This document shows positions 1,487 through 31,875 of a stretch of 48,429 nucleotides of DNA, one piece after another; the first letter of the stretch is position 1; each line of letters starts with the position of its first letter. The notes beneath the pieces were generated by a model, which searched no databases, was not told the DNA's origin, and saw nothing but the letters and a program-made list of their open reading frames with translations. The translations under genes were made by a program, and so were the position numbers. The DNA comes from Candidatus Schekmanbacteria bacterium. Its GTDB lineage: Bacteria > CSSED10-310 > JACPHN01. Location: the NCBI GenBank assembly GCA_016188575.1, contig JACPHN010000050.1:1-48429 (forward strand). The letters run 5' to 3'.

Positions 1487-9025
<7,539 letters not shown>

Positions 9026-26125: not shown

Positions 26126-27313
26126 ATGAAGATCGAATCCATACGCCTGAAGAACTACAAGGTGTTTCGCGACGTGCATCTGAAAGACATTCCATCTTTC
26201 CTCGTCGTGGTCGGCGCTAACGGTTCGGGCAAAACAACGCTGTTCGATGTGTTCGGCTTCCTGCACGATTGCCTGAAAGGCACGGTGCGCCAGGCGCTGG
26301 ACAAGCGCGGTCGGTTCCGCGAAGTGTTGAGCCGCAATGCCGATGGCGACACGATCCTGATCAAGATTCAGTACCGCATGCTGATTACTGGCGTAGAGCG
26401 ACTGGTGACGTATTCGCTGGAGATCGGCGAACAAGGCGGCTCGCCCGTCGTGCAGCGCGAATTGCTGCGCTACAAACGCGGGCGCTATGGCAGTCCGTTC
26501 CATTTTCTGGATTTTGCCGGTGGCGAGGGTTACGCCATTACCAATGAAGAGGATTTCAATCGGGAAGATGAAGACCTTGAGCGTGAAGCCCAGCGGGTGG
26601 GTGCCGATACCTTGGCGATCAAGGGCCTGGGCCAGTTCGAGCGCTTCAAGGCGGCGAACGCCTTCCGGCAGTTGATCGAATCCTGGCATGTGTCGGACTT
26701 TCATATCAGCGCCGCCCGCGGCCGCAAGGAGGCGGCGGGCGATTCGGAGCATCTGTCGGAGACCGGGGACAATCTGCCGCGCGTCGCGCAGTATCTGTTC
26801 GAGCAGCATCCACAAACCTTCCAGCGCATCCTCGATACCATGGCACGGCGAGTGCCGGGCGTGGCTTCGGTGGAGCCGCGCCTGATGGATGATGGCTACC
26901 TCACGCTGCGCTTTCAGGATGGCTCATTCAAGACGCCGTTCCTGGACCGTTACGTGTCGGATGGCACCATCAAGATGTTTGCCTACCTGGTCCTGCTGCA
27001 CGATCCCAAACCCCATCCATTGCTGTGCGTCGAAGAGCCGGAAAACCAGCTATATCCCCGCCTGATGGGCGAGTTGGCGGAGGAGTTCCGGCTTTATGCC
27101 CATCGTGGCGGACAGGTGCTCGTGTCGACACACTCGCCGGACTTCCTGAATGCGATGCGACTCGACGAGGTGTGCTGGCTGGTCAAGCGCGAAGGTTGCG
27201 CTGAGATTCGCCGCGCCCGCGACGATGCGCAGATCGCCGCCTACATGGCCGAAGGCGATCAGATGGGCTTTCTCTGGAAGCAGGGCTTCTTCAAGGGAGC
27301 CGATCCGGCATGA
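26126..27313 (+). CDS. AAA family (AAA_21/RecF-like) ATPase of a two-gene defence-like operon
   Basis: The 395-residue protein starts MKIESIRLKNYKVFRDVHLK, the opening strand of SMC/RecF-type ATPases, with Walker A VVGANGSGKTTLFD (about 29-41). The C-terminal lobe has the Walker B region LLCVEEPENQLYP and the H-loop VLVSTHSPDFLNAM. The middle part (about 100-200) is charged. The downstream gene overlaps by four bases (ATGA) and encodes a DUF4276 protein. ATPases of this type paired with TOPRIM-like partners occur in phage-defence systems such as AbiL, RloAB and PARIS, where the ATPase senses infection and controls the effector. No experimental role can be claimed here. Base composition is lower in GC than the purine operon, suggesting transfer. 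Confidence 0.85.
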   Translation: MKIESIRLKNYKVFRDVHLKDIPSFLVVVGANGSGKTTLFDVFGFLHDCLKGTVRQALDKRGRFREVLSRNADGDTILIKIQYRMLITGVERLVTYSLEIGEQGGSPVVQRELLRYKRGRYGSPFHFLDFAGGEGYAITNEEDFNREDEDLEREAQRVGADTLAIKGLGQFERFKAANAFRQLIESWHVSDFHISAARGRKEAAGDSEHLSETGDNLPRVAQYLFEQHPQTFQRILDTMARRVPGVASVEPRLMDDGYLTLRFQDGSFKTPFLDRYVSDGTIKMFAYLVLLHDPKPHPLLCVEEPENQLYPRLMGELAEEFRLYAHRGGQVLVSTHSPDFLNAMRLDEVCWLVKREGCAEIRRARDDAQIAAYMAEGDQMGFLWKQGFFKGADPA

Positions 27314-27894
27314 AGGAGCTCGTGTTTCTGCTCGAAGAAGAATCTGCGAAGGCCATGCTGGAGAGCTTGTTGCCGCGCATCCTCCATCCCGATATTCGGC
27401 CGCGTTACGTCCCCTTCGAGGGCAAGCAAGATCTTGAGCGGCAGATGGTCAGGCGCCTGCGCGGTTACGCGAATCCGCATGCACGCTTCATCGTGCTGCG
27501 CGATCAGGACAGCGCGCCGGATTGCGGGGCGGTAAAGGAAAAGCTGATCGAGCGCTGCCAGGAAGCCGGGAAAGCAGGGAAAACCCTGGTGCGCATCGCC
27601 TGCACGGAATTGCAAGCGTTCTACCTGGCCGATCTGCGCGCTGTCGAGCAAGGGCTTGGGCTCGACAAGCTGGCGAGCCAACAGGGCTCGGCCAAGTTTC
27701 GCTATCCGGATGGCCTCGCCAATCCCAGCAAGGAGTTGACGACGCTGACTGCAGGCGAATACCAAAAGGTCAGTGGATCACGCTCTATCGGGAGGTTTCT
27801 CGACCCGGCGAATGAGCGCTCACCCAGTTTCAGGAGCTTCATCAAGGGCATTCGGCGGATGGAAAGCGAAATGCTCGCGTTGCCGGATGCGTAG
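27310..27894 (+). CDS. DUF4276-like protein, probable TOPRIM-fold effector partner of the ATPase
   Basis: The 194-residue protein starts MKELVFLLEEESAKAMLESLL, with an acidic Glu motif on the first strand and helix. FIVLRDQDSAPDC at about 57-69 provides a D-x-D motif, the layout of TOPRIM nucleases. RIACTELQAFYLADL and the ending FIKGIRRMESEMLALP are typical of DUF4276. Translation is coupled to the ATPase gene. In related pairs the TOPRIM protein is the toxic effector. The family name is from memory of its motifs; the nuclease role is inference. Confidence 0.75.
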   Translation: MKELVFLLEEESAKAMLESLLPRILHPDIRPRYVPFEGKQDLERQMVRRLRGYANPHARFIVLRDQDSAPDCGAVKEKLIERCQEAGKAGKTLVRIACTELQAFYLADLRAVEQGLGLDKLASQQGSAKFRYPDGLANPSKELTTLTAGEYQKVSGSRSIGRFLDPANERSPSFRSFIKGIRRMESEMLALPDA

Positions 27895-29456: not shown

Positions 29457-29853
29457 ATGACGGGAGTCATCAGGGGCTTCCCATACCGCGCCCAAGCGCC
29501 TCGCAGCACCGGGCAAGCGACGATCGAGCGCAAGCGGCACATGATGCGAAGGCCGCGTGGGATGCCGGCACGGAATGATCTCACGACGCAGAGCCATGCC
29601 CTGTTCGAGATGGCCGCTCAGGGGACGCGAGCGCTCCTTGGTCGCGAGGCTCTGCGATGAACGAGGCGCAGATCCTCTTGGAAATCGACGCGGACCTCCG
29701 CAAGGCGAAGTACGTCCGCTACCTGGAGGGCAAGCCGACCCCCAGGTGTTCTTCGCGCTGTCCGGAAGCTACCTGCAGTCTCTTTCCCGCATGAGCTTCG
29801 GCGAAACCGCGAGCGCGGTGCGGCTGTCCAGTCGCGGAGACATTAGCAGGTGA
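29457..29853 (+). other. Two short coupled frames before the glycosyltransferase, probably remnants or a frameshifted small gene
   Basis: A frame ending at 29660 (DLTTQSHALFEMAAQGTRAL) overlaps by ATGA a second frame starting MNEAQILLEIDADLRKAKYV at 29657. After about 29 residues the likely coding frame seems to shift: the continuation QVFFALSGSYLQSLSRMSFG reads on to a stop at 29853 that overlaps the GTG start of the glycosyltransferase. Overlapping starts and stops suggest a former operon. I do not recognise either protein. Confidence 0.35.
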
Positions 29854-31547
29854 CATCCTTGTCGGCGGACCAGCTTGCCGAGCAAGCGCGGCGATATCTG
29901 TCCCACCCGCCGCACCCGCGTGTGGCGGCCCTGGCGATCCCGCTCTTTCAGCGAGCGGTGGCGCTGGCGCCGGCGCGTATTGATCTCCGCCTTGACCTCG
30001 CGACAGCCTATTTCAGGCTCGGGCAGAGCGCACAGGCGATCGAAACTTGTGACGAGACGCTGGCGCGGTACCCCGATGCGGTCGAGGCGCGGCTTTTTCG
30101 CTGCATGTACCAGATCCGGATCGTCTACCACAGCGCCGCGGAGGTCACCGCCGCTCGCGAGGCCTACGGATATCAGCTCGCGGCACTGACTGCCATGATC
30201 GATCGCGAGCCGGCTCGCCTGGAGCGGTTGGCAGGCTGGATCCACAGGGCCCGCCCCTTCTATCTGCCTTACCAGGGCGAAAACGACGTGGAGCTGCAGC
30301 GAACGTACGGAAGCCTCGCTTGCCGGGCCATGGCGGCCGCGTGTCCGGACTGGACAGGCACCCGAGCGATGCCGCCGGCGCCGCCTGGATCACCCCTGCG
30401 GGTCGGGGTAGTGTCCGGATACTTTCGCAATCACGCCATCTGGAGCGCCATCATCCGCGGCTGGCTGACGGGGCTCGACGCCAGCCGCTTCGCCCTGCAC
30501 GGCTACTCGCTGTCGGCGCGACAGGACACGTGCACCGCCGAGGCGCGCCACCGGTGCGCCCGATTTCATGCTGGCGAGCGGTCCTTTCGCGACTGGTGCG
30601 AGACGATCTCGGCCGACCGACTCCACGTTCTGCTCTATCCGGAGGTTTGCGAGCATGCGCTGGCGACGCGCCTTGCCATGCTGCGTCTGGCACCGGTGCA
30701 GGGGATGGCGGGCGGCCATTGCGTGACCAGCGGGCTGCCGACGATGGACTACTATCTCGGCGGCGACCTGATGGAACCTGCAGATGCAGCGAGCCACTAC
30801 AGCGAGCGCCTCGTGCGACTTCCCAACCTGGGGTATGCGTACCGCCAACCGCTCGTCGCGCCTCCTCAACGCATTCGCGAGGACTTCGGGTTGCGGCCCG
30901 AGGCGGTCGTCTACCTGAGCCCCCACTCGGTGTTCAAGTACCTGCCTCAACACGATGGCGTTTATGCGGACATTGCGGAGCGGGTGCGCGACAGCCAGCT
31001 CGTGTTTGTCAAACACCTCAAGGTCGAGGCGCTGAGCCGCCAGCTCGAACGGAGGATCACGGCGGCGTTCACGGCGCGGGGACTCGACCCCAAACAGCAC
31101 CTGGTATTTCTGCCGCGCATGGGGCCATCGGCCTACAACGACATCCAGTGTCTTGCCGACATCTATCTCGACGCGATCGGCTGGAACGGCGGAACCACCA
31201 CCGCCACGGCCTTGGGCTATGGGCTGCCGGCGGTGACGCTGAGCGGGCCGGTGTCCCGCGGGCGAATGGGAACCGCCATGCTGCGGCGCCTGGGCATCTT
31301 CGAGACCATTGCCGGCACGCCGGCGGGTTACGTCGACATCGCCGCGAGACTCGGGCATGACAAGCACTTTCGGCGCGAGCTGCGCCAGCGAGTTGGCGCC
31401 GCGAACCATCTACTCTACGATGACCCGGCTTATGCCGGGGGCCTCGCCTCGTTCCTGGAGAAAGCGGTCGCCGGCTCCCCCGGCCTGTCTTCCTCCGCGA
31501 GCGGGAGCAGGTGCGGGGGCCTCCCCGCGCAAGAGGGGAAACGTTGA
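29850..31547 (+). CDS. SPINDLY-type glycosyltransferase (GT41) with N-terminal TPR repeats
   Basis: The 565-residue protein starts with a GTG overlapping the preceding stop. Residues about 1-110 are TPR-like helices (FQRAVALAPARIDLRLDLAT, AIETCDETLARYPDAVEARL). From about 180 it matches the catalytic domain of O-GlcNAc-transferase/SPINDLY proteins: LRVGVVSGYFRNHAIWSAII, FALHGYSL, VTSGLPTMDYYLGGDLMEP, HYSERLVRLPNLG and LDAIGWNGGTTTATALGYGLP. Family members transfer GlcNAc, fucose or other sugars to Ser/Thr of proteins, or build surface glycans. The last 25 residues are translated from a GC-rich hairpin like the dispersed repeat. A RiPP-like precursor gene starts 134 bases downstream; a joint role is inference. 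Confidence 0.85.
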   Translation: MTSLSADQLAEQARRYLSHPPHPRVAALAIPLFQRAVALAPARIDLRLDLATAYFRLGQSAQAIETCDETLARYPDAVEARLFRCMYQIRIVYHSAAEVTAAREAYGYQLAALTAMIDREPARLERLAGWIHRARPFYLPYQGENDVELQRTYGSLACRAMAAACPDWTGTRAMPPAPPGSPLRVGVVSGYFRNHAIWSAIIRGWLTGLDASRFALHGYSLSARQDTCTAEARHRCARFHAGERSFRDWCETISADRLHVLLYPEVCEHALATRLAMLRLAPVQGMAGGHCVTSGLPTMDYYLGGDLMEPADAASHYSERLVRLPNLGYAYRQPLVAPPQRIREDFGLRPEAVVYLSPHSVFKYLPQHDGVYADIAERVRDSQLVFVKHLKVEALSRQLERRITAAFTARGLDPKQHLVFLPRMGPSAYNDIQCLADIYLDAIGWNGGTTTATALGYGLPAVTLSGPVSRGRMGTAMLRRLGIFETIAGTPAGYVDIAARLGHDKHFRRELRQRVGAANHLLYDDPAYAGGLASFLEKAVAGSPGLSSSASGSRCGGLPAQEGKR

Positions 31548-31586: not shown

Positions 31587-31680
31587 GTTTCCGGGTCGGC
31601 TACCGGGGCGCGGGGCGCGCCGCGAGAAGCGCGAGGCGTTTTCTGACTGCACGGCAGCAACACTCGACATGAGGATCGTC

Positions 31681-31875
31681 ATGACCAACCCGGATCGCGA
31701 AGCCAACACCACACCCTCCGACGTAACCGCCACCGATGGCGAGCGCCAGCGAGCAGTGCAGCGCAAACCGTGGCCGGGCGCGCCTCGCCTGACCAGGCTC
31801 ATGGTGGCGGACACGAAGTCCGGCGGCACGATATTCACCTCCATGGAGGGCACCTGCTCCTCTGCTCCTTCCTGA
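31681..31875 (+). CDS. Candidate RiPP precursor peptide with lasso-type leader
   Basis: The ATG at 31681 sits five bases after AGGA; an earlier ATG at 31669 is less well placed. The 64-residue product has a polar leader ending KPWPGAPRLTRLMVADT, which fits the lasso leader pattern Y/W-x-x-P-x-L with a Thr near the cut site; that pattern is recognised by the leader-binding B1 protein. The likely core is SGGTIFTSMEGTCSSAPS, rich in Ser and Thr and ending in Ser. The paeninodin leader has the same P-x-L-x-x-L-x-V-x-x-T spacing, and its C-terminal Ser is phosphorylated by an HPrK-like kinase. Ring geometry is not ideal: Glu56 is tenth from Ser47 or ninth from Gly48, where the cut would be three rather than two residues after Thr. 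It converges on the cyclase-like operon, which is unusual. Confidence 0.55.
   Translation: MTNPDREANTTPSDVTATDGERQRAVQRKPWPGAPRLTRLMVADTKSGGTIFTSMEGTCSSAPS

Follow-up and report, generated by a model that had tools for sequence, protein, structure and literature searches.

A 64-residue open reading frame (ORF) in the window, a 48,429-bp stretch of DNA on contig C154 of a Candidatus Schekmanbacteria genome, looks like a genuine lasso-type precursor (A). Judged by its sequence, the chances are about evenly balanced that it is the precursor of a paeninodin-like (HPrK-class) lasso-type peptide whose genes are unusually arranged. The ORF is located next to genes for a lasso-cyclase-like protein (C), an HPrK-like protein (K) and a sulfotransferase (Table 1), and genes for B1 and B2 are found on other contigs.

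Table 1. Features of the candidate precursor locus in the window
Feature	Position	Strand	Basis and remarks
TPR + GT41 glycosyltransferase (OGT / HMW1C-like)	29850..31547	+	Upstream of the precursor, same strand; putative cluster member
Putative precursor peptide (A), 64 aa	31681..31875	+	Translation; residues 1-46 leader, 47-64 candidate core SGGTIFTSMEGTCSSAPS, which may instead start at Gly48 or Gly49
Conserved leader segment PRLTRLMVADT (Pro35-Thr45)	31783..31815	+	Comparison with the C160 locus of the same genome, Thalassobaculum/Novosphingobium and 74 Paenibacillales leaders
Glu56 codon	31846..31848	+	Sole possible Asp/Glu macrolactam acceptor past Thr45
Lasso-cyclase-like asparagine synthetase homologue (C), 607 aa	31917..33740	-	SGGVDSS present; starts MILG, no Cys2
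HPrK-like protein (K), 309 aa	33784..34713	-	P-loop intact (Lys138); Glu117 for catalytic His, Asp155-Gly156 for Asp-Asp
Sulfotransferase (PF00685), 281 aa	34720..35565	-	6 bp upstream of K, same strand

The similarity of the leader to those of independent precursors, located beside HPrK/asparagine synthetase clusters, appears to be the strongest evidence that the precursor is real. The window leader, PWPGAPRLTRLMVADT, matches that of the C160 locus in the same genome, PWKAPRLAQLSLGKT, as well as those of Thalassobaculum (PWSAPRLSLLPIENT) and Novosphingobium (SWSAPRLTILPVENT). The 74 distinct precursors collected beside HPrK genes in Paenibacillales and close Bacilli have the leader W..P.L..L.V..T, and the C-terminal residue is Ser in all of them. 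From Pro35 to Thr45 the window leader fits this pattern throughout, so the paeninodin-like P-x-L-x-x-L-x-V-x-x-T spacing of the original prediction is borne out. The similarity also runs through Thr45, before which an end of conservation had been named as telling against a precursor. The segment presumably comprises the RRE-binding and B2-recognition region. In the solved leader complex of a paeninodin-type system (PbaB1-PbaA), the contacts are made by W-15, P-12, L-10 and L-7, with which the spacing of the window leader agrees (PMC13381572). The RRE of this system, PbaB1, is PDB entry 9x90; a PDB sequence search for the PbaB1 leader chain gave no match.

One feature of the leader, absent from the original prediction, is the position of Trp31 just upstream of this segment. 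It is located four residues before Pro35 (WPGAP), one residue farther out than in the collected leaders, and all the tabulated comparators have WxxP or YxxP. Measured against the lasso-precursor pattern of Thr(-2) with [YW]xxPx[LVI] and an Asp or Glu at core position 7-9, Thr45 and the PxL are present and the Trp is shifted by one; the core position of the acid depends on the register (below).

The ORF translates as MTNPDREANTTPSDVTATDGERQRAVQRKPWPGAPRLTRLMVADTKSGGTIFTSMEGTCSSAPS, followed by the stop codon, and confirms the residue numbers given earlier for Pro35, Thr45, Ser47, Gly48, Glu56, Cys59 and the C-terminal Ser64. Translation could also begin at an in-frame ATG at 31669. The GC contents at the three codon positions (0.55, 0.65 and 0.78) do not have a typical coding pattern, probably because Thr, Ser and Pro are frequent in the peptide. 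With a regular expression that covers the leader and the terminal Ser, the window yields a single matching ORF, whereas 100 Markov-1 random sequences with its length and dinucleotide composition yield none; the expression was composed with knowledge of the family, which makes this a consistency check and not an unbiased p-value.

The neighboring C protein is matched by PF00733 (9.3e-37), and its top NCBIfam match is the lasso cyclase family NF033535, at 244.7 bits (under the cut-off of 525). Two other asparagine synthetase homologues in the genome start with MCGI and have the glutaminase Cys2, which is missing from C. The identity of C to other cyclases is 24-29%, and its position was not resolved in the cyclase tree, in which the C150 row was disregarded. 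The 3′ end of C faces that of the precursor gene, and the two are therefore convergent and not co-directional. On the minus strand, the order of transcription is sulfotransferase, K and C. No homologue of the TPR/GT41 glycosyltransferase was found in the related clusters searched. Elsewhere in the window (26126-27894, + strand), a gene for an AAA_21 ATPase is directly followed by one for a DUF4276 protein, a pair that resembles the phage-defense MAD3/MAD4 pair, below curated cut-offs.

The HPrK-like neighbor of the original prediction is present. Lasso kinases have a common, essential His-Lys-Asp-Asp (HKDD) set (PMC9266682; BsfK in PMC10368454), and K has Glu117, Lys138, Asp155 and Gly156 at these positions. 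As K is missing two of the four catalytic residues, the phosphorylation of the precursor that had been implied is weakened, and phosphorylation of the C-terminal Ser by K is doubtful. All four residues are kept in 13 of 20 aligned kinases. Departures are seen in five of eight kinases beside a sulfotransferase and in two of 12 others, a small sample in which two of the rows are orthologues. The five are the window protein (EKDG), the second copies in Thalassobaculum and Novosphingobium (QKDG), and two from Tistrella (QKDD and HKDE). These losses in kinases paired with a sulfotransferase hint at an altered role of K there. Sulfotransferase-adjacent HPrK-like proteins, often short of HKDD residues, are found in the window and at L036:8216-9166, L041:10342-11289, L039:4917-5903 and L190:5120-5983. 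A contig scan of genomes with the window kinase as the lone query found no relative, and an alignment of eight kinases contained no stretch conserved enough as a search query.

Genome-wide searches for B2 and PqqD, together with local HMMs on the window, found neither B1 nor B2 on the 48-kb contig C154, which ends with the window, more than 12 kb past the sulfotransferase gene. If the locus is functional, B1 and B2 must therefore be supplied in trans; otherwise the locus would be non-functional or decaying. The single detectable B2 of the genome (PF13471) is on contig C250 (L003:8205-8705, + strand), with no cyclase nearby; judging from sequence, its flanking genes are presumably serC and a peroxiredoxin-like gene. 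Four PqqD (B1) matches are over the cut-off, on C95, C150, C160 and C230. At each of the loci on C95, C150 and C160, C, K and B1 are accompanied by a candidate precursor but not by B2, which gives four cyclase/HPrK loci in the genome (with C154) for one detectable B2. The genome is about 94% complete, and a missed B2 is possible. For the PqqD-type, B1-like protein on C230 (L035:8378-8731, + strand), no cyclase or precursor was found nearby.

The distance from Thr to the acid is +11 in the window precursor (Glu56 from Thr45). It is +10 in 58 of the 74 precursors from Paenibacillales and close Bacilli, the distance that we take to be that of the paeninodin type, with a nine-residue ring if Thr is at -2. 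The other 16 have no acid at +10 and one at +11, as in the window; this fraction is probably inflated, because the query kinase, to which most of the loci are best matches, comes from a +11 cluster. The distance is +9 in four Pseudomonas and one Tistrella precursors and +10 in two Tistrella and one Hyphomicrobiales (Glu) precursors, all from proteobacterial relatives with a sulfotransferase. In the other loci of the genome it is +9 (C160 and C150) and +10 (C95). The Thr+11 geometry is real and is not unique to the window gene; the off-pattern ring of the original prediction stands as to the distance but not as a peculiarity of this gene.

Three registers can be considered for the cut site. A core starting at Ser47 has Thr at -2 and Pro at -12, with the acid at core position 10 and a ten-residue ring. 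A start at Gly48 places Thr at -3 and the acid at position 9, for a nine-residue ring. The third register, Gly49, had not been considered before and has Ser at -2, Pro at -14, the acid at position 8 and an eight-residue ring. Pro(-12) is the spacing of the PbaB1-PbaA complex (PMC13381572), while in other lasso leaders B1 is stated to recognize Pro(-14)/Leu(-12) (PMC10368454). Leader homology would favor Ser47, and ring-size precedent would favor Gly48 or Gly49. The earlier statement that a rule is broken either way holds for the first two registers as compared to characterized lasso peptides, but is too strong because of the Gly49 register, which seems to break the rules least and nearly satisfies them.

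If a product is made from this core, a ten-residue ring is our tentative first choice. Rings of nine and eight residues are both rather unlikely, to the same degree, and a product with no ring would be more unlikely again. The lasso rings described so far, to our knowledge, have seven to nine residues. A literature search that covered few subscription papers, and is weak evidence for that reason, found no description of a ten-residue lasso ring.

Cys59 had been singled out as an unusual tail residue, and was rejected as a special feature on the basis of two precursors from Tistrella plasmid pTM1. These lasso-like precursors (L190:3391-3564 and 3998-4156, both on the - strand) have a Cys in the tail (GIGCVS and GNCGS) and are near an HPrK-sulfotransferase pair. 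No recognizable cyclase was found in this 12.8-kb stretch.

HPrK and sulfotransferase genes have already been reported in lasso clusters (PMC4289311, PMC8498205), and paeninodin-type peptides have been described as restricted to Bacillota (PMC13381572). The loci of this genome and the proteobacterial loci resemble the paeninodin type in leader and gene content. With the paeninodin type (PadeA/PadeK and homologues in Paenibacillales), the window shares the leader pattern from Pro35 to Thr45, the HPrK-like gene, a cyclase-like gene and the C-terminal Ser, and with a minority also the Thr+11 acid. On the other hand, the window has W-xxx-P, Glu rather than Asp as the acceptor, a K without the His and the second Asp, and no local B1 or B2. 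The window appears to work like a paeninodin-type system; it is not filed as a member because K departs from HKDD and local B1 and B2 are absent. Its genome also comes from a phylum with eight genomes available for comparison; no relatives of the locus were found among these eight or in the order or class, for which this genome is the only one.

Clusters with K, a sulfotransferase and C are found in Pseudomonas sp. PDM16 (L050), a Rhodobacteraceae MAG (L048), Tistrella pTM3 (L039), Hyphomicrobiales UR115 (L189) and Thalassobaculum. In the first four, as in the window, K adjoins the sulfotransferase, and the precursors, where found, end in Ser; in that of Hyphomicrobiales UR115, a Glu is likewise plausibly placed as the acceptor. 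Unlike in the window, the acid of these precursors lies at Thr+9 or +10, all four clusters include B1, and the Pseudomonas cluster also includes B2. Thalassobaculum OXR-137 and Novosphingobium beihaiensis have a leader motif nearly identical to that of the window (PWSAPRL and SWSAPRL), K, C and a degenerate K beside a sulfotransferase. Their cores have no Asp or Glu, however, and Thalassobaculum has B1 and B2. The conserved precursors of the two (L036:5995-6222 and L041:8042-8242, both + strand) have Gln at Thr+10, where a nine-residue ring needs an acid, and the cyclase is kept. The Bradymonadales lasso peptide BsfA also has an HPrK-type kinase, an atypical -2 residue, and Gly1 with an eight-residue ring like the Gly49 register; it differs in Ile(-2), Asp8, phosphorylation of Ser3, an active kinase, and B1 and B2 characterized from the same cluster (PMC10368454). 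A survey of Sphingomonadaceae found few lasso precursors within 1.5 kb of the matches, most of which are probably ordinary HPr kinases.

In the reading that we prefer, a PqqD-type RRE (B1) would bind the Trp31-Thr45 stretch of the leader, and the lone B2 peptidase encoded on C250 would cut after the leader; both would be supplied in trans, as neither is found on C154. The leaders to which that of the window aligns best have Pro at -12 (those of C160 and Thalassobaculum), which suggests that Thr45 is at -2 and that the cut is before Ser47. The C protein would then join the new N-terminus to Glu56, and a Ser or Thr is probably the target of the neighboring sulfotransferase. With two of its catalytic residues missing, K is less likely to be an ordinary peptide kinase than a binding partner or an enzyme of weak or altered activity.

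The divergence of the cyclase, the losses in K, the W-to-P spacing, the convergent C and A genes and the lack of B1 and B2 nearby all count against a lasso product, and together could reflect decay. A decaying or orphaned cluster, which lost B1, B2 and the K residues while the precursor drifted (an extra residue in W-xx-P, the acid at +11) and which makes no lasso peptide, is nonetheless unlikely. It would account for the lack of B1 and B2 on the contig, for the EKDG of K and for a W-to-P spacing found in none of the tabulated comparators. However, none of the four ORFs is broken, the three large genes have a normal GC pattern over the codon positions, and the active-site motif of C and the P-loop of K are preserved. 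Sharing of B2 looks systematic rather than a sign of decay, because the other three loci of the genome also lack it. Moreover, Thalassobaculum and Novosphingobium also have a degenerate K next to a sulfotransferase; the two are 83% identical to each other, and the degenerate form is therefore maintained there.

Two further readings concern the product. A cut-site variant of the preferred explanation, an ordinary eight-residue ring closed between Gly1 and Glu8 after a long, Pro(-14) leader, with Ser47 at -2 and Thr45 not the recognition Thr, is quite unlikely, as the leader aligns best with the Pro(-12) leaders. It does have precedents: the C150 locus of the same genome uses a long spacing (P-to-T 12, Ser1-Asp8), Gly1 with an eight-residue ring is standard, and BsfA provides a case of a -2 residue that is not Thr (Ile; PMC10368454). 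Least probable is that the product of the cyclase and the modifying enzymes is linear or has another kind of linkage, as would a peptide that is modified but not closed into a ring. Thalassobaculum and Novosphingobium, with C and a conserved precursor lacking Asp/Glu past the leader, point that way, as do known phosphorylated relatives that are linear and have similar leaders, although the clusters of the latter have no cyclase (PMC13381572). The window core retains one acid near the ring-size range, and C carries the synthetase motif.

If true, one B2 serving several cyclase loci would be a departure from known lasso systems, and catalytically depleted HPrK-like proteins beside sulfotransferases would be a further one. 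We consider it decidedly unlikely that there is a native class of lasso peptides with ten-residue rings, comprising the window precursor (Ser47-Glu56) and the Paenibacillales precursors with the acid at Thr+11 (such as TMASTTNGPFTDEAY and TMLDPKNGNHLDH), with one B2 shared in trans by the four cyclase loci here. Cleavage of the Thr+11 precursors at the usual place would mean that ten-residue rings are made by a sizeable group of bacteria, including cultured species of Paenibacillales.
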